Below the pieces are notes generated by a model. It saw only the letters and a program-made list of their open reading frames with translations, was not told the origin of the DNA and did no database searches. A program made the position numbers and the translations under genes. Shown one piece after another: positions 3,314 through 11,881 of a DNA stretch of 13,784 nucleotides. This stretch comes from Alphaproteobacteria bacterium (GTDB taxonomy: Bacteria > Pseudomonadota > Alphaproteobacteria > Rs-D84), in NCBI GenBank assembly GCA_024402755.1, contig JAKSTD010000004.1, positions 1 to 13,784 on the forward strand. The letters run 5' to 3'. Position 1 is the first letter of the stretch, and each line of letters opens with the position of its first letter.

Positions 3314-3697
3314 ATGGCAGTAAATAAATCAAAAAAGAAAGTTGTAAAGAAAGTATCACATGGGATTGCCCATATTGTTGCAACTAATAATAATACACGT
3401 ATAACAATCACAGACCAAAGCGGTGACGTATTCGCTTGGGCAACCGCGGGGGCTACTAATTTCAAGGCCGCAAAAAAATCAACACCATATGCAGCAACTG
3501 TTGTTGCAGATGCAGTCGGTAAAAAGGTTGCAGAAATGGGTATGCAGACAGTTGATGTTTTGATGCGCGGTATTGGTCAGGGTCGTGAATCTGCTGTTCG
3601 TGGTTTGGCAAATGCAGGATTGGTTGTTCAATCTATTACAGACACGACTCGTATTCCACACAACGGGTGCCGTCCAAAGAAAGTTCGTCGTGTGTAA
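3314..3697 (+). CDS. rpsK: 30S ribosomal protein S11
   Basis: S11 is on the platform of the small subunit and helps shape the mRNA exit/Shine-Dalgarno region. The 127-residue product shows GIAHIVATNNNTRITITDQSG, the TPYAA segment, MRGIGQGRESAVRGLANAGL and the invariant end IPHNGCRPKKVRRV. Length is normal. AAGGA (3302-3306) lies 7 bases before the ATG. In most bacteria rpoA and rplQ follow in the same operon; here a terminator starts 23 bases after the stop, so this operon ends at rpsK. Confidence 0.97.
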   Translation: MAVNKSKKKVVKKVSHGIAHIVATNNNTRITITDQSGDVFAWATAGATNFKAAKKSTPYAATVVADAVGKKVAEMGMQTVDVLMRGIGQGRESAVRGLANAGLVVQSITDTTRIPHNGCRPKKVRRV

Positions 3698-3720
3698 TAA
3701 TGCGTTTGAAAAGAAACAAA

Positions 3721-3749
3721 GCACCGCAACTTTTTCGCGGTGTTTTTTT
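3721..3749 (+). terminator. Intrinsic terminator after rpsK
   Basis: CACCGC (3722-3727) pairs perfectly with GCGGTG (3737-3742) across a 9-base loop, followed by seven T (3743-3749). It closes the ribosomal-protein operon directly after rpsK, where rpoA would normally continue. Confidence 0.85.
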
Positions 3750-3753
3750 CAAC

Positions 3754-3796
3754 TCTCCCCACCGCAATGCGTTTTTTCCCCCCCCAGTGGGGGAGA
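3754..3796. repeat. G/C-rich inverted repeat after the rpsK terminator
   Basis: CCCCC (3781-3785) and GGGGG (3789-3793) form a tight hairpin with a 3-base loop. Alternatively TCTCCCC (3754-3760) can pair with GGGGAGA (3790-3796). This stretch is far more GC-rich than its surroundings and directly precedes the protein remnant at 3816-4055. It may mark the edge of an inserted or decayed element. No target duplication or transposase is visible. Confidence 0.4.
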
Positions 3797-3815
3797 ATCC
3801 GCATTCGTCGTGCAA

Positions 3816-4055
3816 GGTGCAGTTAACATTACTACACCCACTACTGCCACTTTGTTTGCTATACACGCAACAGGAACTACAACTCTGTATCATTCAAGAA
3901 CCAAAATATATGAATATAAAATGTGGCGAAACGGTATATTGACTCAACATATGATTCCTGTGAAACGCGACAGTGGTATGTATGATACTGTTTCTAAAAC
4001 TTTCTTTACAAATGCGGGTACCGGGACATTTACGGAGGGACCAGTTGTGCAATAA
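3816..4055 (+). pseudogene. C-terminal remnant of a surface or phage-tail-type protein
   Basis: An open frame of 79 codons ends at TAA 4053-4055 and reads GAVNITTPTTATLFAIHATG, then SRTKIYEYKMWRNGILTQHM, then IPVKRDSGMYDTVSKTFFTN and AGTGTFTEGPVVQ. The block with Y-K-M-W-x-N-G, M-I-P-V, G-M-Y-D-T-V-x-K-F-F-T-N-A-G-T-G is, from memory, the end of concanavalin/LamG-like domains in secreted or tail proteins of gut bacteria and phages. The frame stays open upstream, but only through the rpsK terminator and rpsK itself out of frame. There is no start codon with a ribosome binding site and no N-terminal domain. It is therefore most likely a truncated leftover, possibly from recombination with a full-length copy elsewhere. 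A terminator follows immediately. Family assignment is moderately sure; loss of function is inferred. Confidence 0.55.
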
Positions 4056-4085
4056 AAAACGACCCGCGGATGCGGGTTGTTTTTT
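4054..4085. terminator. Bidirectional terminator between the remnant and infA
   Basis: ACCCGC (4062-4067), loop GGAT, GCGGGT (4072-4077) forms the core. Pairing extends outward through CG/TG (one G-U) to an A6 tract on the left (4054-4059) and a T6 tract on the right (4080-4085). The arrangement gives a U-tail in both directions, so it can end transcription from the + side and from infA on the - strand, whose stop lies 12 bases away. Confidence 0.85.
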
Positions 4086-4096
4086 ATCAATTTGTT

Positions 4097-4351
4097 TTAT
4101 TGATGGTTTGGGGCGCCAGCATCTGAGGCATTTTTGCGTTCGACAAATGTAATACGTCCCTTGTCCAAATCGTATGGTGTCATTTCAACATGAACCTTTT
4201 CCCCAACGTTAACCCAGATGCGCGCCTTGCGCATTTTTCCACATACTGTTGCCAATATCAAATGCCCGTTTTCAAGGCGAACACGGAACATTGTGTTGGG
4301 TAATCTGTCTTCGACCACACCAGAAAAAACAATTACATCATCTTTTGCCAT
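4097..4351 (-). CDS. infA: Translation initiation factor IF-1
   Basis: IF-1 binds the A site of the 30S subunit and cooperates with IF-2 and IF-3 in initiation. The 84-residue product is an S1-type OB fold: [20 protein letters not shown], then [37 protein letters not shown] and the signature [15 protein letters not shown]. The family is usually about 72 residues; the extra is a polar C-terminal tail ([11 protein letters not shown]). The start has AAAGG 9 bases upstream on the - strand. The gene stands alone, ends at a bidirectional terminator, and diverges from the cysteine-rich operon across a 134-base intergenic region holding both promoters. Confidence 0.95.
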
Positions 4352-4428: not shown

Positions 4429-4457
4429 TTGCAAGGTGTCTTGTTTTTTGATAAAAT
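4429..4457 (+). promoter_or_regulatory. Predicted promoter of the cysteine-rich two-gene operon
   Basis: TTGCAA (4429-4434), a 17-base spacer and TAAAAT (4452-4457), the latter preceded by TGA as in an extended -10 element. Initiation near 4464 leaves a short leader of about 22 bases with AGGA (4472-4475) 10 bases before ATG 4486. It diverges from the infA promoter. Confidence 0.55.
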
Positions 4458-4485: not shown

Positions 4486-6678
4486 ATGAAAATGATAAAA
4501 TTTTTGTCGTTATTGGTTTTGGCGCCAACGGTTGCCTTTGGCGCAACGCGCGGGGATTCGAGCACACGCGTTGGTGTGCCGCGTGGTTCGCAAACTGCAT
4601 CTCGTATGCCGACTGCTGCTTGGGCAACAGCTGTCCAAACAGCGCAAAGTGTTACGGTAAATTCAAATGCAAATACCGTACAGAATACACAAAATGTTTC
4701 TAATAATAACCAGACAAATACCGAAAAGCAAACAGATGCACCCCAGACGGAAACTGTTGCGACTGTTGATGCAACACCGACAAATTGTCGTAATGCGTAT
4801 CGTCAGTGTATGGATGAATTTTGTTTATTGGACGAAAGCCAGGGCGAAAGATGCGCCTGTTCAAATAATATAAATTCTGCCAAAGATAAAATAAACGCGA
4901 TACTTGCTATCCAGGAAGAAGCAGACAATTTATACACAACTGGTGTTGAACGTGAACAACTTGGGGCCAAGGCGAAACTGGTGTTTGCAGAAAATACAAA
5001 TAATAAACAGGTTTCTAATACGAATTTCTTGGCTTGGCTGGTCGGCGACGACGACGAAGTTGATGAAGATGAAGATATCGGTGAAGATGTAACATTGGGT
5101 GATGATTTATACAAAATGGCATCAAAATATTGTCAGGAAAAATTAGATTCGTGTGGGGATTCTGCGGAAATGGAAGCGGTACTTTATTCGCGTATGATTA
5201 CCCAAGATTGTAAAAATTACGATTCGTATTTACGCGACCAAAAAGCAAATGCAGAATCAAATAAGCGAATCGCTGAATCTGCTGTGCGCAAGGCGCGCCT
5301 TGAAATGTTAGACACAACAAACAAATACAATCGTGGTGAATGTTTATTGGCATATCGTTCTTGTATCGCGGACAAGGGTGGATGTGGTGTGAATTTTGAA
5401 AACTGTTTGGATGCGAATTTATTAAAGCGCCGTTCAAATACTTGTGAAAATATACTCGACCAATGTATGGCTGTGCGTGTGGATGTTGAAAAAGATTGGG
5501 CGGCAGAATCTAAAAGTATTTTGGAAAATGCTATGAAATATGCAGATACAAACAGACGTGGAACATGCCTGGCGCGTGTGCAGAATTGTTTGGAAGAAAG
5601 TTGTTCTACATCAACCAGAACAGAATGTTTGAATGATGTTAATGTGGCGGCTGGAATTTGTCCTGTTATTACAGAGTGCGAAGAGATGATTCCTGGGTTT
5701 CAATCTGTGATAAATGATAAATTGGCATATTTGAAAACAAAGTTTTGTGAAAATGATGTTGATAAATGCTTGCAAGATAAATGTGGCGTCGATTTTACCA
5801 AGGCGGAATGTGTCGGGAAAAAAGCATACGAAATCGCCGCGCTTTGTCCACAAGAAATGTTCGCTTCGTGCAGAGATGTTACGCAGTATAATGTAATTGT
5901 GCAATCTGCGTTGTTACAGATGGATTATCAAATGTTGACGGGATGTGTTAATTATTTCAGCGAACAGTTAAGCAAGGTTTGTGGAACAGATATGGCTTGT
6001 TTGCCGATTGTGGCATCTGCAACATCTTTTGACAAGGTGCCAGAAACAGAAGCGGCAAGTGATGCTTTGAAAGCCAGGGTCATCGCAGATTCTGATGCGG
6101 CAGTTGAAGAATTTTTTAAACAATTTGAAAAAGATAAAACTGTTGTCGCGTGCGCCGATTCGCAAACAAATGTAAGCGATTCAAAGAAAGTTAAGAACAA
6201 AGAATCTTTGGGTGTAAATGTTTTCAATTCTGCAAAGATGCTGGCGAAAATGTCCGCGGAACAACGTAACTTGCGCGAAATGAATTCAAGAAAAGCAGAA
6301 TTAAGCAAGAAAGAATCTTTGGAAAAAGCAGAAAAAAATTGTCTAACGAATTACAAGCCAGAAACAGCAGATAAATCAAAAAGTAACTATATGTATATAA
6401 AAAGTGTTTCGTTTGAACCGGCTTTGCGTAATTGTCATGTTTGTCGTATGCAACAGGTTTGTGAAACCGGCGGTGAATCAAAAGCAGCCGCTGCATTGAA
6501 AGCGGGGGCGGGCGGATTGTCTGCGGGCGCATCAGCTGGGACAATGATAAATGCCGGCTGGGGGACAGCGATAGGTGCCGTTGTTGGTGGTGTTGGTGCT
6601 GGATTGCTCGGTGGTTTCAGTGGTGGTAAACAAGAATTCTGTCAAGAAATTGAATCTTGCGAAGATATAAGTATGTAA
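4486..6678 (+). CDS. Exported cysteine-rich protein A, 36 cysteines, glycine zipper near C-terminus
   Basis: I do not recognise a characterised family. The 730-residue product starts with a Sec signal peptide (MKMIKFLSLLVLAPTVAFGA), then a Ser/Thr/Asn/Gln-rich low-complexity linker to about residue 98. A cysteine-rich body follows: C101-x6-C108-x4-C113 and a CxC (123-125); an acidic patch (GDDDEVDEDED, 187-197) after AWLV; C286-x6-C293-x6-C300-x6-C307; C320-x6-C327; C361-x6-C368-x4-C373; C421-x6-C428-x4-C433; and a terminal CHVC (650-653). The even total of 36 cysteines in an exported protein suggests disulfides. Residues 667-714 are Ala/Gly-rich with GxxxG spacing, a glycine-zipper-like membrane segment that the downstream paralogue lacks. 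The intervening Lys/Glu-rich stretches look helical. The start is supported by a promoter and AGGA. It is the first gene of a two-gene unit; the second begins 19 bases after its stop. Confidence 0.85.
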   Translation: MKMIKFLSLLVLAPTVAFGATRGDSSTRVGVPRGSQTASRMPTAAWATAVQTAQSVTVNSNANTVQNTQNVSNNNQTNTEKQTDAPQTETVATVDATPTNCRNAYRQCMDEFCLLDESQGERCACSNNINSAKDKINAILAIQEEADNLYTTGVEREQLGAKAKLVFAENTNNKQVSNTNFLAWLVGDDDEVDEDEDIGEDVTLGDDLYKMASKYCQEKLDSCGDSAEMEAVLYSRMITQDCKNYDSYLRDQKANAESNKRIAESAVRKARLEMLDTTNKYNRGECLLAYRSCIADKGGCGVNFENCLDANLLKRRSNTCENILDQCMAVRVDVEKDWAAESKSILENAMKYADTNRRGTCLARVQNCLEESCSTSTRTECLNDVNVAAGICPVITECEEMIPGFQSVINDKLAYLKTKFCENDVDKCLQDKCGVDFTKAECVGKKAYEIAALCPQEMFASCRDVTQYNVIVQSALLQMDYQMLTGCVNYFSEQLSKVCGTDMACLPIVASATSFDKVPETEAASDALKARVIADSDAAVEEFFKQFEKDKTVVACADSQTNVSDSKKVKNKESLGVNVFNSAKMLAKMSAEQRNLREMNSRKAELSKKESLEKAEKNCLTNYKPETADKSKSNYMYIKSVSFEPALRNCHVCRMQQVCETGGESKAAAALKAGAGGLSAGASAGTMINAGWGTAIGAVVGGVGAGLLGGFSGGKQEFCQEIESCEDISM

Positions 6679-6697
6679 AATTGGACGGAGAGAATAA

Positions 6698-9262
6698 ATG
6701 AAAAAAATATTAAACTTTGGTTTGTTTTTTGGATTGTTGACGGTGTTTATCGGGGCAACTGATTCTTTGGCTGCAACGACAACCAAAGCAAAAAAACAGT
6801 CCGCACTTCAGGCGGGAACCAAAGTGCGTGCCAAGGTTGAAGCAACTGGTATCTATGACCAAGAATGTTTCGATAAATATTTTGGGTGTATGGATGCGTT
6901 TTGTATTGCTGATAATGAAAATGGTGGAACCTGTATGTGCAGCGATGATGCCGCTAAATATGACGAGCAATTGGAAGCAATTAAAAAAACTTTGGCAGAG
7001 GCAGAACGTATCAGCACAGAAGAAGTAGAAAAAATTCAGGCAGGTGCAAATGCAGATATAATATTTAATGGTGGTGAAAGAATTTATAATGCGGATGGTT
7101 CTGTGGTAAAGGCGGGCGAAACAAAAGCAACCGCGAAGAATACAAGTGCTTTATCGTGGCTGTTCGGTGATGAAGAAGACGACGAAGAAGAATGGGATGA
7201 AATAGATTTGTCTGACAAGGTTGGTCGTGATTTGTATGATTCTGCGAATGAGTTATGTAAAAAACAAATGCCAGAATCTTGTTCAAAAGATATAACACTT
7301 TTGACGCAAATATATTCGCGTCAAATAGTTTCTGATTGCAAAGGGCTGGCAAACAGCATCGCACAAAAGAAAGCCGAAGCAGATGCCGCATTAAATCAGG
7401 CGCGTGCGGCGGTGCGTGGCGCGTTGAAAGATTCTCTGGAAGAATCAAATCAATACGGGCGCGGCGAATGTTTGGTTGAATACAAAAAATGTATGCGGGG
7501 TGAAGATGCGTGCGGTTCTGATTGGTCGCATTGTGTGTTCACAATCGCATCTGAAAATATGCAAAACAATGAATCAAGCAGTGTCGCTGGAACAAAAGTC
7601 GAAACGACAAATGTTTATGATATAACCGCGTCAACAATGGAAATGTTAGAGGCAAAACGTTTCATTTGTGAACGTGTTTTGGATAAATGTGTTGCTGTTC
7701 GTGACTATGTTTGGACCGATTTTTTGCGTGAAGCAGCACCTACAATTCGTCTTGCGGAACAAAATGTAGAATCGCAAAAACGTCAATCTTGTTTGACTGA
7801 TATTTCGAATTGTATTCAAACAGCATGCAAAGACGATATTGCAGGCAAAGGGGTTGCGACAATGGATGCCTGTTTATCAAGACCGGATATGGCGCGTTCG
7901 TTCTGTAAAATTCAAATTGACCCATGCGAAAGAATGGAACCGCAAATCTGGGATTATGTTGTTGCAAAATTGGCAGCAATGCGTGTTGATTCTTGCACAG
8001 CAGAAGTCAAAGAATGCTTTACATCCGAAGACAGATGCGGACCTGATTTTATGAATTGTATCGGAATGGATTTTGCATATATTCACGATATGTGCCCAAT
8101 CGATAAATTGGTAACCTGCAAACAAACAAATCCAAATTTCAAAATGGCTGATTTGGATGAAATGTTAATGGGGTTGTATTTGAATATTGATAACAAGGCA
8201 TTGGAAAATTGTACCAAGGTTGCCGAAGAAAAAATGGTTGAATTCTGTGGCGCGACATCGAATTGTAATTCGTTCGCAGCGGATGAATATATTGGAGCAA
8301 ATTCATTAAAGTCACAAAAAGATGGTTCTGTTTACCGTGTGACTGGTATGATTTCGTTTGGTTCAATAAAAATCGGTGATGCCGCGGGTTCTATTAAAGA
8401 CGGTGGTAAAGTATTAAAGCCGGGCGAAATAGGGGTCAAAGATTATATTGCTGCGGTAAAGAAAAACAATCGTTCTGTTCCAAATGCGGATGCGATTATT
8501 TCCAATATCGAAGAAGAATTGAATAACATTGCGGGAACAATCAACAGAACAATTTCTTTGATTGAATCAGACCAACAGGTTCAATATTGTATCAATGGTC
8601 GTGATTTGTCACAAATAAATGGACGCGGAAATCAAAACAATTCAACATTTGCGCGCTTCCCGAATTTGTTGAACCAATATCGTGTTGCGATTGCACAATC
8701 TGCATTGCGCAAAGCACAAGATAATTATCAAAAGAAATATGAAAAAATAGTATCAGAGGCAACAGAAAACGCATCCATAGATGTTGCACAATACAGATGT
8801 CAAATGTTGCCATTGGGGATGGATGGATTGATTAGTTCTGAACAGACTTCGCTGGATACACCTTATGCGATTTCTTATGATATTGATGAAGGGTTAGATT
8901 TGCAAACCTTGACAAGCGGAGGTAAAGGAATTTCTGGTTTAGGTGGATCAAAAATATCCACATCTAATGATTCTTCTGTTGATGTACTTGTCGGTAAACA
9001 AAAAGACAAAGCAAAAGACACGAAACAAAAAAGTAAAACAAACGGTATAGCTGTCGGGACAGATAAATCAACCGCTATTGATTTGGATGGTTCAGGTATG
9101 AAAGAAGTGACATCCGTATTTAATCGTGATACAAGAATTTGTCATGTTTGCACAACGACCAGTGTTGAAAATTGTGAACAATTGAAAGTCAAAGGGACAA
9201 AAGTCAAAAAGAAAAATTGTGTGACGGATGTTCAAGAATTTTGTGAAGATGTTCAACTTTAA
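6698..9262 (+). CDS. Exported cysteine-rich protein B, 36 cysteines, paralogue of the upstream gene
   Basis: Not a family I can name. The 854-residue product has a signal peptide (MKKILNFGLFFGLLTVFIGA, cleavage probably near TDSLA-A). It repeats the upstream protein's layout without the low-complexity linker: C57-x6-C64-x4-C69 and CxC (79-81); SWLF then an acidic patch (DEEDDEEEWDE, 158-168); C258-x6-C265-x6-C272-x6-C279; C324-x6-C331; C365-x6-C372-x4-C377; C433-x6-C440-x6-C447-x6-C454; CHVC (815-818). It also has 36 cysteines, in the same 14 groups. Extra length lies mainly between the tenth group and CHVC, including a Lys-rich stretch (KQKDKAKDTKQKSK). It has no glycine zipper. GGAG (6687-6690) is 7 bases before the ATG. 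It is cotranscribed with the upstream gene and followed by a terminator. A structural or surface role is inferred only. Confidence 0.85.
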   Translation: MKKILNFGLFFGLLTVFIGATDSLAATTTKAKKQSALQAGTKVRAKVEATGIYDQECFDKYFGCMDAFCIADNENGGTCMCSDDAAKYDEQLEAIKKTLAEAERISTEEVEKIQAGANADIIFNGGERIYNADGSVVKAGETKATAKNTSALSWLFGDEEDDEEEWDEIDLSDKVGRDLYDSANELCKKQMPESCSKDITLLTQIYSRQIVSDCKGLANSIAQKKAEADAALNQARAAVRGALKDSLEESNQYGRGECLVEYKKCMRGEDACGSDWSHCVFTIASENMQNNESSSVAGTKVETTNVYDITASTMEMLEAKRFICERVLDKCVAVRDYVWTDFLREAAPTIRLAEQNVESQKRQSCLTDISNCIQTACKDDIAGKGVATMDACLSRPDMARSFCKIQIDPCERMEPQIWDYVVAKLAAMRVDSCTAEVKECFTSEDRCGPDFMNCIGMDFAYIHDMCPIDKLVTCKQTNPNFKMADLDEMLMGLYLNIDNKALENCTKVAEEKMVEFCGATSNCNSFAADEYIGANSLKSQKDGSVYRVTGMISFGSIKIGDAAGSIKDGGKVLKPGEIGVKDYIAAVKKNNRSVPNADAIISNIEEELNNIAGTINRTISLIESDQQVQYCINGRDLSQINGRGNQNNSTFARFPNLLNQYRVAIAQSALRKAQDNYQKKYEKIVSEATENASIDVAQYRCQMLPLGMDGLISSEQTSLDTPYAISYDIDEGLDLQTLTSGGKGISGLGGSKISTSNDSSVDVLVGKQKDKAKDTKQKSKTNGIAVGTDKSTAIDLDGSGMKEVTSVFNRDTRICHVCTTTSVENCEQLKVKGTKVKKKNCVTDVQEFCEDVQL

Positions 9263-9266
9263 TCGC

Positions 9267-9295
9267 AACCGCCCGTTTGGGCGGTTTTTATTTTC
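9267..9295 (+). terminator. Intrinsic terminator of the cysteine-rich operon
   Basis: AACCGCCC (9267-9274), loop GTTT, GGGCGGTT (9279-9286): a perfect 8-bp stem followed by TTTATTTT. It begins 5 bases after the stop of the second cysteine-rich gene and seals the two-gene unit. Confidence 0.9.
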
Positions 9296-9342: not shown

Positions 9343-9378
9343 ATGGAAAACAAAATAACAAAAAAGGGATTATTATGA
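9343..9378 (+). CDS. Possible 11-residue leader peptide overlapping the BOF gene start
   Basis: An open frame reads MENKITKKGLL and stops at TGA 9376-9378, overlapping the next ATG (9375-9377) as ATGA, the classic layout for coupled translation. Its ATG coincides with the predicted transcription start, so it could only be translated as a leaderless frame. The ribosome binding site of the BOF gene lies inside it. It may equally be a chance frame in a 32-base leader; there is no second copy for comparison. Confidence 0.3.
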   Translation: MENKITKKGLL

Positions 9379-9734
9379 AAAAAATATCAGTATTGGCTTT
9401 GGCGGCAATAATGCCAATTTGTGGTGCGGTTGCAGGTCCTGGTAAAACTATGAACAATGGAACGATGAATAATGCACATCCTGCTGTGTGGAGCGTGACA
9501 GAAATTATGAACTTGCCAGATGATACACCAGTGGTGATGCGTGGGCGTATTACGAAAAATATGGGAAATAATATTTTTGTGTTCGAAGATGATTCTGGCT
9601 CAATTATGTTGGAAATCGAAGAAGATTCTTGGAATGGTAATACCGTTCGTGTCAATGATGTTGTGACTGTCTATGGTAATGTGGACCAAGGTTCGAATTA
9701 TACAGAAATTGATGTGAATTCAATCGTGAAATAA
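9375..9734 (+). CDS. Exported BOF-family protein (YgiW/YdeI-like bacterial OB fold)
   Basis: A 119-residue product with signal peptide MKKISVLALAAIMPICGAVA and cleavage before GPGK. The mature part is a single bacterial OB-fold domain: PVVMRGRITKNMGNNIFVFE, then DDSGSIMLEIEEDSWNGNTV, and VYGNVDQGSNYTEIDVNSI. The G-x-I, F-x-D-x-(S/T)-G and E-I-D-V blocks are typical of the family, whose enterobacterial members (YgiW/VisP, YdeI) are periplasmic stress-tolerance proteins. Their ligand is not firmly established in general, and nothing here specifies it. AGGGA (9365-9369) sits 5 bases before the ATG. It is monocistronic: its own promoter lies upstream and a terminator begins at the stop codon. Confidence 0.85.
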   Translation: MKKISVLALAAIMPICGAVAGPGKTMNNGTMNNAHPAVWSVTEIMNLPDDTPVVMRGRITKNMGNNIFVFEDDSGSIMLEIEEDSWNGNTVRVNDVVTVYGNVDQGSNYTEIDVNSIVK

Positions 9735-9799: not shown

Positions 9800-10777
9800 A
9801 TGAAATTAAAAAAATCTTTGTTTTCGTTATTGATGATGATGTGTGTCGCGCCAGCAATCGCTGGGTGGCAGTATGATGGCTATTACATTGATGACAGTTA
9901 TTATACCGATGATGGAACAAAATTTGTTATCGGTTTTCGTGGTGGGCTGTCATGGGCAAATGCGAAAATTCACAACGAAATTGGGAATTTGTATGGGTAT
10001 TATTATGTGAATGAAACAACGGGTGATGTTATATCTGCCATGGCATGGGAAGCAGCGGGTTCCCCAGCCGGATATTTATCTGCGGGCTATGGCGATTTAT
10101 CAACTTTGCCGGCAAAGGAAAATTTTTCAAAATGGGCTTTTACCGCGGGGGGCAGTATCGGTTTCACGATACCATATCATCCAAATTGGCGGCTTGAGGC
10201 AGGATATGACCATATCGCTGAAACAGATTATAACAGAATTCCGCTGTTTGATGGTGATTTAAATGTTTCTGGTGGCGATGTTGAAGGTGTTGTTAATGTT
10301 TCTAGTAGTGGTGCAACATCAACTGTGTCAACGGATATAATTTCTGCGATGGCTTATTATGATTTCTTTGATGGAAATCAAAAGCCACTGAATACACTTA
10401 TTCCATATTTTGGTTTGGGCATTGGGTATGCTACATCAAAAACCACATTAAAATTGGCAGATATTTACGGTGATTTATCAACAGATTCTGATTTGCAAAA
10501 TTATGGAACACCAGATGCAGACGGGGTTATACAATTTATGCCACCATCTGATAAATCAAAATATCCATCGTCTGAAAATGTCGCTGGGATTGCTGCTTTG
10601 GGTGTTTCGTATGGAATAACAAAATATACTTTCCTTGATTTTGGGGCACGTGTTATTTATATTCCAAAAATTACTTGGAATTTAGTAAATGCTGATGCAT
10701 CACAACATCGTGAATGGTTCAGTGCCAAGAATATGATTTATTCCAATTTCACGGTCGGGTTGCGTTTCGAATTTTAA
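9800..10777 (+). CDS. Outer-membrane beta-barrel protein
   Basis: A 325-residue product with a signal peptide (MKLKKSLFSLLMMMCVAPAI, cleavage before GWQYDG). The mature part is rich in Gly, Tyr and Asp, with alternating hydrophobic/polar stretches typical of barrel strands, for example KFVIGFRGGLSWANA, KWAFTAGGSIGFTI, NWRLEAGYDHIAETDY, LIPYFGLGIGYATSKTTLKL and YTFLDFGARVIYI. It ends FTVGLRFEF, with the C-terminal phenylalanine used by the BAM complex to recognise outer-membrane proteins. Size and layout suit an OmpA-N-terminal/OmpW-like or surface-antigen barrel of roughly 8-10 strands with long extracellular loops. There is no peptidoglycan-binding C-terminal domain. It is apparently monocistronic. 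The exact family is not resolved from the sequence alone. Confidence 0.8.
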   Translation: MKLKKSLFSLLMMMCVAPAIAGWQYDGYYIDDSYYTDDGTKFVIGFRGGLSWANAKIHNEIGNLYGYYYVNETTGDVISAMAWEAAGSPAGYLSAGYGDLSTLPAKENFSKWAFTAGGSIGFTIPYHPNWRLEAGYDHIAETDYNRIPLFDGDLNVSGGDVEGVVNVSSSGATSTVSTDIISAMAYYDFFDGNQKPLNTLIPYFGLGIGYATSKTTLKLADIYGDLSTDSDLQNYGTPDADGVIQFMPPSDKSKYPSSENVAGIAALGVSYGITKYTFLDFGARVIYIPKITWNLVNADASQHREWFSAKNMIYSNFTVGLRFEF

Positions 10778-10797
10778 TCAATTTTTTTGATTGTTTT
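10776..10797 (+). terminator. Weak intrinsic terminator after the outer-membrane protein gene
   Basis: AATCAA (10776-10781), a T5 loop and TTGATT (10787-10792), followed by GTTTT. The stem is AT-rich and the tail short, so efficiency may be modest. On the other strand there is no U-tract, so it should not serve the convergent gene. Confidence 0.5.
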
Positions 10798-11881
10798 ATG
10801 GTTCGTTAAATAAACGCGCTGGGTCAACCGAGTTTTTTCCGCGTCTAACCTCAAGATACATTTCTGGTTTGTTTTCGTTCATGCGACCAATAGGTTCGCC
10901 AGCCAAAACCTCTTGACCAACCAGGGCATCAATTTCGCCCATATTTGTCATAACTGTGTTATATCCATTTTTGTGCGACATAATTATAACTTTGCCAAAG
11001 CCGCGGAAAGAATCAGCAAATTTTACAACACCGTCTGCTGGTGCCATAACAATCGCGTTCCCGCGTGCGCGTATGCGCCATCCGTCTGATTTCAGTCCCA
11101 ATGCGGTCTTTTCACCATAACGAACAACCAGTTTTCCACGAACTGGGACATTTAATTTCCGCTTTGAAAATTTTGCATCACTGGACATTTGGGAAGAACC
11201 AACCCCAGCGGACAATTCAGAAATATTTTTCGCCGCTGCAGATAATTTTTTCAATTTGTTTTGAATATCTTTTTGTTCTTTTTTTAATTTTTCATTTTGT
11301 GCAGAACGTGTTTTTAATAATTTATCTAGTTCACGTCGTGCATTGGTATATTGTTTCGCACTGCGGTCCAGTTTTTCTTTTTCCGTTGTGCGTTGTTCGT
11401 GTATCTTTTCAAGTTCTTTTAATTTTTGTGTCGCATCCATAATTTGGGAATCAAATTGGTCTGTTGCCGCAGCCAGAATTGCCGAAGTTAAAACATAATC
11501 GTGCATAGATTCCGCATCAAAATTTGGATGTGCAGCGATAAAAACCATACCAGCTGCAGCATTTGCGATGTCATTATGATTTTGTGATAATTCAGCATTT
11601 ATTTTATCGCGTTGTTTGTCCAATTCTGCGATGCGTCTGGTTAGCGCATTGCGTTGTTCTTCTAAATTGCTGACCTTGTCAGCGGTCTTGACCAACTGTT
11701 TTTTTGTGGTTTCAACATCGCGAGCAGACGTTTTTAATTGCTGTTCAATTTGTTTGTGTTTTTGTTCTGTCTGTTTGATTTGGTTTTGAATTTTAGACAG
11801 TTCATTATTGCCAGCGCCTATCGCAGAAGATAAGCCAAGTCCAAATATAATAGCAGATAAAAATATTCTGTTTTTAGACAT
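10796..11881 (-). CDS. envC: EnvC-like murein hydrolase activator (coiled coil + degenerate LytM/M23 domain)
   Basis: A 361-residue product with signal peptide MSKNRIFLSAIIFGLGLSSA (cleavage near IGA-GNN). Two long Lys/Glu/Gln-rich coiled coils (about residues 27-100 and 146-220) flank a short hydrophobic-helix region, as in EnvC, where the coiled coil binds FtsEX. The C-terminal LytM domain (about 245-358) starts LNVPVRGKLVVRYGE and contains APADGVVKFADSFRGFGKVI, GQEVLAGEPIG and YLEVRRGKNSVDPARL. The metal ligands of active M23 peptidases are missing: the first His and Asp are replaced in the GWRIRARG segment, and the HxH site reads MTN. It is thus likely a non-catalytic activator of amidases that split septal peptidoglycan, not an enzyme. 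It is convergent with the outer-membrane gene and has its own promoter on the - strand. The amidase partner is not in the window. Confidence 0.8.
   Translation of the reverse strand: MSKNRIFLSAIIFGLGLSSAIGAGNNELSKIQNQIKQTEQKHKQIEQQLKTSARDVETTKKQLVKTADKVSNLEEQRNALTRRIAELDKQRDKINAELSQNHNDIANAAAGMVFIAAHPNFDAESMHDYVLTSAILAAATDQFDSQIMDATQKLKELEKIHEQRTTEKEKLDRSAKQYTNARRELDKLLKTRSAQNEKLKKEQKDIQNKLKKLSAAAKNISELSAGVGSSQMSSDAKFSKRKLNVPVRGKLVVRYGEKTALGLKSDGWRIRARGNAIVMAPADGVVKFADSFRGFGKVIIMSHKNGYNTVMTNMGEIDALVGQEVLAGEPIGRMNENKPEMYLEVRRGKNSVDPARLFNEP

Follow-up and report, generated by a model that had tools for sequence, protein, structure and literature searches.

Genes A and B encode homologous giant exported proteins that share an invariant frame of 36 cysteines, and they belong to a family found so far, within the samples searched, solely in the alphaproteobacterial order Rs-D84. 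In the explanation that we consider best, and about equally likely to be right or wrong, the two proteins would form part of a disulfide-stapled helical envelope scaffold, with A anchored in the membrane and B soluble, that is oxidized by a DsbA-like enzyme working without DsbB or VKOR. The window (the whole stretch of DNA that was analyzed, 13,784 nucleotides) is the contig labeled C79 in a genome of 627 kb that is 61.6% complete, and its features are collected in Table 1.

The reading frames of A and B are both open and adjacent, with an intergenic gap of 19 bases, such that the two-gene operon described in an earlier note on this DNA stands locally; as the whole picture it falls short, since the family comprises about ten members. 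The same note had given the pair its own promoter and terminator. The terminator is the part that held up, as a good-looking hairpin follows B and terminator-like sites are in slight excess in the window (14 observed versus 7.6 expected). Promoter-like sites are not in excess over shuffles (23 observed versus 24.4 expected), so that the site upstream of A amounts to a consensus match. Ordinary envelope genes lie near the pair, coding for an outer-membrane beta-barrel-like protein (window positions 9800–10777) and a coiled-coil M23 peptidase (10796–11881). Between rpsK and infA, a coding stretch at 3573–4096 resembles the end of another surface protein, and in many relatives it is a giant of group C (see below), not this stretch, that adjoins infA. 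Near the C gene on another contig, 17 bases of a C/G-rich, repeat-like stretch in this rpsK–infA region occur again, so that 3573–4096 may reflect a rearrangement or an assembly join.

Table 1. Features of the A–B locus, in window positions.
Feature	Positions	Strand	Remarks
infA (IF-1)	4097–4351	-	divergent neighbor of A; Pfam match eIF-1a
Promoter-like site 5' of A	4429–4457	+	consensus match only
ORF A	4486–6678	+	exported, 730 aa, with 36 Cys; largely helical, ending in a beta/glycine-zipper domain
A, N-terminal module C-x6-CMDxFC-x9-CxC, residues 101–125	4786–4860	+	
A, acidic low-confidence loop after WLV, residues 187–200	5044–5085	+	pLDDT < 50
A, RGEC-led C-x6-C-x6-C-x6-C, residues 286–307	5341–5406	+	
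A, C-terminal beta domain with CHVC and last two Cys, residues 635–729	6388–6672	+	AlphaFold2 model
A, glycine-zipper helical hairpin, about residues 666–714	6481–6627	+	candidate membrane insertion
Ribosome-binding-like stretch GGACGGAGAG 5' of B	6683–6692	+	read by eye
ORF B	6698–9262	+	exported paralogue of 854 aa whose 36 Cys align with those of A; lacks a comparable glycine zipper
B, N-terminal module of the same kind, residues 57–81	6866–6940	+	
B, C-x6-C-x6-C-x6-C, residues 258–279	7469–7534	+	
B, C-terminal three-stranded beta domain, residues 800–853	9095–9256	+	AlphaFold2 model
Terminator-like hairpin 3' of B	9267–9286	+	good-looking
BOF-family OB-fold exported protein	9375–9734	+	3' of B; Pfam match

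The cysteine frame itself is as the earlier note had described it. Each protein carries 36 cysteines (4.9% of the residues of A and 4.2% of those of B), which, grouped by eye, fall into exactly the same 14 groups (5,2,1,4,2,4,2,4,2,3,1,1,3,2), behind an N-terminal stretch that reads by eye as signal-peptide-like in both. The shared spacings are all found (C-x6-C-x4-C plus CxC, an RGEC-led C-x6-C-x6-C-x6-C, and CHVC), as is the acidic patch, which follows WLV in one protein and WLF in the other. A and B are clearly homologues, in agreement with the proposed paralogy (BLASTP 171 bits, E=1e-48, 27% identity across 485 columns). In a superfamily alignment, all 36 cysteines of A coincide with the 36 of B at an identity of 21.0% outside these columns, so that the sequence between the cysteines has indeed diverged. 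Furthermore, 21 of the 35 inter-cysteine spacings are equal in the two proteins, a value that was not reached when the spacing order was shuffled 20,000 times (mean 3.2, maximum 10). Selection had been proposed to keep this frame, with homologues lacking conserved cysteines named as the case against; among the 120 best homologues of each protein the cysteines are kept, all 36 at a frequency of at least 0.99 in A and of 1.0 in B, and two A homologue sequences carry 35. The cysteines of the N-terminal module of A recur in all 15 groups compared, barring C101 in family f6.

At E<=0.01, the protein database holds 954 homologues of A and, among the candidates sharing most words with B, 1246 of B. 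Their gene order is stable: of 80 named loci, 78 have B 3' of A, and in 72 of the 78 the two genes are separated by -1 to 69 bases; A and B thus belong together genetically. On the other side of A, infA is found in 54 of the 80 loci, contig ends truncating some of these, and a BOF-family gene follows B in 55. Beyond infA there is often a group C giant, with a gene for a protein of ~235 aa behind it in 42 loci; in the window's genome, C (assigned by the tree) is on another contig, beside a clpX-like gene (clpX by eye). As the earlier note had anticipated in naming no characterized family, neither protein has a match in Pfam, NCBIfam, PDB sequences, PHROG, or PADLOC, and tblastn at 1e-5 with A as the query finds no homologue in 50,697 phage and 72,556 plasmid records. 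Its reading of the pair as a two-component structure captured the operon pairing and missed both the paralogues and the restriction to a single order.

These paralogues were sorted by iterated profiles over the fetched loci, together with a tree and gene neighbors, into groups A, B, C, D, F, G, H, I, J, and K, the letters being labels given in this analysis. One complete chromosome from the same genus (G060, 1,001,484 bases) encodes ten members, of which one is weak (E=6.6e-14); together they sum to 8429 residues, or about 2.5% of the chromosome when calculated by hand; the tenth has 26 cysteines. In the tree of 45 members, A, B, C, and D each form one supported clade, the rows of order family f5 are long-branched, and the f5 protein f5a groups with A (support 100/99), such that A seemingly predates the split of those order families. 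Three tandem giants in f5 (L040:14398-16691) are followed by two more cysteine-rich genes.

Searching related genomes by profile, much as the earlier note had advised, we obtained matches to the A+B profile in 199 of 201 order genomes, with at most five candidates scored per genome. Order families f2 and f4 match only weakly, the best E values being 6e-5 and about 1e-8 to 1e-16, and the two genomes that lack a match are among the rows of these two families. The DNA pattern for CMDxFC occurs in 180 of 191 genomes scanned, that is, in all 173 scanned from family f1 (5 to 11 matches per genome in 18 listed f1 genomes at least 98% complete) and in 7 of 18 from other order families. In two 98%-complete genomes, G141 and G070, the best A+B matches reach 1.9e-115 and 4.7e-121, and the A–B pair may be absent or broken there. 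Outside the order, an A+B+C profile matched none of the 380 other genomes in a class-wide sample of 385 in which at most two candidates per genome were scored; all five matching genomes are from Rs-D84 ("Candidatus Enterousia"), and, among those without a match, 20 are itemized, all from outside the order, and 360 are not. "Candidatus Enterousia" is also among the names of the homologue records, and locus L125 is from Candidatus Enterousia intestinigallinarum (OX097180.1). Enterousia is a genus of this order, whose members have reduced genomes (near or below 1 Mb in Enterousia), are fermentative without a respiratory chain, lack standard sugar, amino acid, and peptide transporters, and are perhaps partner-dependent (PMC12306168). 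In the open literature on Enterousia and Rs-D84, including searches with cysteine-rich or disulfide terms, none of the titles listed describes the family, which does not prove that no description exists.

What the cysteines do is indicated best by their number. Counted from the first motif cysteine, and thus omitting earlier ones that mostly lie in the signal-peptide-like start, totals are even in 118/120 and 78/78 sequences of A, in 120/120 and 73/73 of B, and in all 30 scored members of groups D, F, G, H, I, J, and f5, while across the family they run from 18 to 44. In merged unique sets, 188 of 194 A sequences have exactly 36 cysteines, four of the six departures being by two and two by one, and so do 182 of 184 B sequences, both departures being by two. 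The parity depends on this starting point, in that whole-ORF totals are even in only 94/120 (A) and 90/120 (B), the extra cysteines preceding the motif. For comparison, whole ORFs of neighboring genes, named by eye, are even in 13/29 (RNase HII), 16/30 (Pgk), 11/35 (ClpX), 5/15 (RecO), and 6/16 (the DsbA-like gene), with an NrdR-like gene as the exception (12/13). We note that orthologue counts, being linked by descent, do not amount to independent trials, and that f6 is unscored (its strict landmark is missing, 1/31), having 31 cysteines, or 30 by eye once the one in its signal-peptide-like start is set aside. Groups K and f3 and locus L038, which run off their contigs or stretches, were left out and have 26, 16, and 24 cysteines.

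Even totals that change in steps of two fit internal disulfides, and we regard internal stapling of the family, as read from these counts, as probable; A and B would then form up to 18 internal disulfides each. The earlier note had suggested a disulfide-linked heteromer of A and B, and the counts do not support this, given that A and B are almost always even from the first motif cysteine and that the paralogues differ by even steps. Intermolecular bonds between the two are therefore decidedly improbable: the fixed operon pairing and identical frames speak for them, and even totals would be compatible with two bridges (or any even number) or with a domain swap, but most departures from 36 in either protein are by two and the group that is mostly odd is C, not A or B.

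A weaker argument for internal disulfides than parity is the paired loss of cysteines. In a table of 15 groups, in which A, B, and C are represented by their first 25 members plus those of the window and two more of C, and with columns matched at a tolerance of one, 25 of the 36 cysteine columns are variable. Ten of these fall into five pairs of identical pattern (101/223, 293/320, 433/556, 462/505, and 659/719), three form a triplet, and 12 stand alone, with near-matching patterns at 373/381 and 428/454. C293 and C320, for instance, have one common presence pattern over the 15 groups and are both missing from C, F, G, and H, which form one clade, such that their loss was probably one event. 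As the paired losses are few events, they slightly lower our confidence in stapling.

Group C differs from the other scored groups: with the count begun at the first motif cysteine, 57 of its 66 sequences have an odd total. It has 29 conserved cysteines (0.91 to 1.0) and extras that mostly come in twos, and the mostly odd total points to a probable free or linking cysteine in C. The window genome's own C has 32 cysteines and is even; a group C giant with the small gene behind it is found at L151:11915-14443 and 14518-15225, and a group C giant at L033:664-2952. The ~235-aa partner has nine cysteines from a WW-like landmark on in 41 of 41 countable sequences (four of 45 are without the landmark), and the two odd totals would suit one intermolecular disulfide between C and this partner. 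We consider such a bond quite unlikely, however: C is odd in 19 of 21 loci lacking an adjacent partner, compared to 38 of 43 rows with one, and the partner was found in only 22 of 59 genomes searched, with no match in the window's (incomplete) genome and 36 others. A C–partner bond is thus not the general reason for the odd count, which calls for another one, such as a homodimer, where the partner is missing.

AlphaFold2 models of A (pLDDT 77.0, pTM 0.46) and B (pLDDT 78.1, pTM 0.52) consist mostly of long helices with a C-terminal beta domain, a low-confidence linker behind the signal-peptide-like start, and a low-confidence acidic loop. Fold searches with these models gave no clear match, which does not by itself make a new fold. 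In A, two helices (residues 666–684 and 693–712) form the glycine-zipper hairpin, inserted into the C-terminal beta domain of the model. The hairpin region is 58–59 residues long in 113 of 120 homologues in which the boundary motif was found, and its best 19-residue hydropathy is 1.53, versus 0.97 for the best window of B. Weak PDB matches of A to CHCHD10 (E 0.29–0.51) fall on residues 670–720, that is, on this glycine-rich hairpin and not on the cysteine modules. In the f5 locus described above (L040), the cysteine-rich genes are followed by one for a 121-aa glycine-rich protein that resembles a freestanding copy of the hairpin of A.

The main rival to a scaffold, and one that we regard as rather unlikely, is a contact, adhesion, or secretion apparatus for metabolites, perhaps tied to a type IV secretion system. 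A VirB4-family match (PF03135) is present in 46 of 53 order genomes, a small VirB3-like gene (VirB3 by eye) lies 5' of VirB4 in four of the five loci listed, companion genes for other cysteine-rich exported proteins stand beside several paralogues, and an order that is reportedly without standard transporters and perhaps partner-dependent (PMC12306168) could make use of such an apparatus. Nevertheless, no family member lies beside virB4 in the five listed of seven fetched loci, A and B match no type IV secretion family in Pfam, and their conservation beside housekeeping genes would be unlike that of variable adhesins.

The VirB3-like and VirB4 pair itself occurs in several order families (L195:9241-11960, L200:8943-11654, L196:4228-6926, and L199:7128-9892), followed in L195, L196, and L200 by an exported protein of ~205 aa. 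About 6 kb from virB4 in L199, which belongs to f2, where the profile finds giants weakly or not at all, lies a 474-aa ORF with 20 cysteines (L199:86-1510). Paralogues followed by another cysteine-rich exported gene (22–29 Cys) are seen at L148:3477-4811, L150:9224-10480, L157:7181-8374, and L165:8389-9381; the two companions that were scanned gave only weak EGF- or ephrin-receptor-like matches.

The order encodes a DsbA-like enzyme: a Thioredoxin_4 match (PF13462) over the cutoff is present in 49 of 53 order genomes and in all six class outsiders. The gene is usually single (two copies over the cutoff in G043 and G046), and the seven order sequences read carry CPYC and hydrophobic N-terminal segments. 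In the window's genome, the enzyme (L145:1341-2159) has two such segments, with cysteines in or near them. The DsbB Pfam model matches none of the 53 order genomes and five of the six outsiders, and the VKOR model matches none of the 53 and one of the six; a divergent or unrelated partner would escape these models. The lack of a recognizable DsbB or VKOR weighs against so many disulfides being made. According to PMC12453122, obligate anaerobes tend to keep cysteines out of exported proteins, bacteria with more even-cysteine exported proteins generally have DsbA together with DsbB or VKOR, and, in an E. coli assay, glutathione disulfide recycled a clostridial DsbA that has no known partner.

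The lack of DsbB and VKOR matches, and of respiratory chains in the order (PMC12306168), would also suit cysteines that bind metal, clusters, or heme, or that serve as a redox store. This reading is highly improbable, as cysteine totals are with few exceptions even and change in steps of two, C-x6-C on helices is the spacing that recurs, histidines are rare (one scored His column in A and three in B), and no metal or heme family was matched in Pfam. The distinction from c-type heme sites drawn in the earlier note also holds, in that the sole C-x2-C of each protein is CHVC, with R as the next residue in A and T in B, and there is no CxxCH.

Returning to the stapled scaffold, we propose that A and B belong to the core of a family that is specific to the order and made up of exported helical proteins, their folds being stapled, on this view, by internal disulfides, and that after export they are probably oxidized by the membrane-anchored DsbA-like enzyme of the order through its CPYC site, which may in turn be recycled by small-molecule disulfides or by another partner. 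The C-terminal glycine-zipper hairpin perhaps holds A in the membrane, B would be the soluble partner from the same operon and possibly in contact with A, and A, B, and the paralogues would together build a tough envelope or surface scaffold. For that last step, a function as scaffold, the grounds are size, copy number, and conservation, and we put it forward tentatively, at somewhat less than an even chance. OmpA-domain proteins are found in all 53 order genomes, so that the family does not simply replace tethers of this kind. With similar caution, and leaning slightly against it, we suggest that an order of fermentative gut bacteria without respiratory chains builds its envelope from ~10 stapled helical proteins, with the DsbA-like enzyme recycled by something other than DsbB or VKOR.

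If all cysteines pair, the ~10-member set would hold of the order of 150 disulfides. Were the proposal true, the family would represent an envelope scaffold of a new type, and the order would provide a natural setting in which oxidative folding proceeds anaerobically; this would contradict the trend against exported cysteines in anaerobes (PMC12453122) and raise the question of where the oxidizing power comes from. The family would also supply this uncultured order, which is thought to be partner-dependent (PMC12306168), with a candidate structural signature. Finally, the parity rule (even totals in all scored groups save C) predicts which members are internally stapled and which carry linking cysteines.

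CHCH or twin CX9C proteins consist of helices with paired cysteines, as do A and B by prediction. A and B are far larger and have a recurrent C-x6-C, in line with the difference from twin CX9C that the earlier note had drawn: there is one x9 gap per protein (C113–C123 in A and C69–C79 in B), and no CHCH family is matched in Pfam at E<=1. The chlamydial OmcA and OmcB, as described in PMC6752827, are likewise cysteine-rich exported envelope proteins of a disulfide-dependent bacterium, but there disulfides form both within and between proteins and a DsbA–DsbB pair is present, whereas here the counts fit internal bonds and no DsbB was found in the 53 order genomes. No OmcA/OmcB-type family matches A or B in Pfam at E<=1, and, judged from the cysteine totals, even counts would argue against cross-linking of this kind for A and B. 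As in the DsbA/DsbB pathway, the order keeps a thioredoxin-fold DsbA-like enzyme with CPYC; unlike in that pathway, neither DsbB (0/53) nor VKOR (0/53) is matched. Lastly, in contrast to the anaerobe trend set out in the source on even-cysteine bias (PMC12453122), this fermentative order has very cysteine-rich exported proteins.
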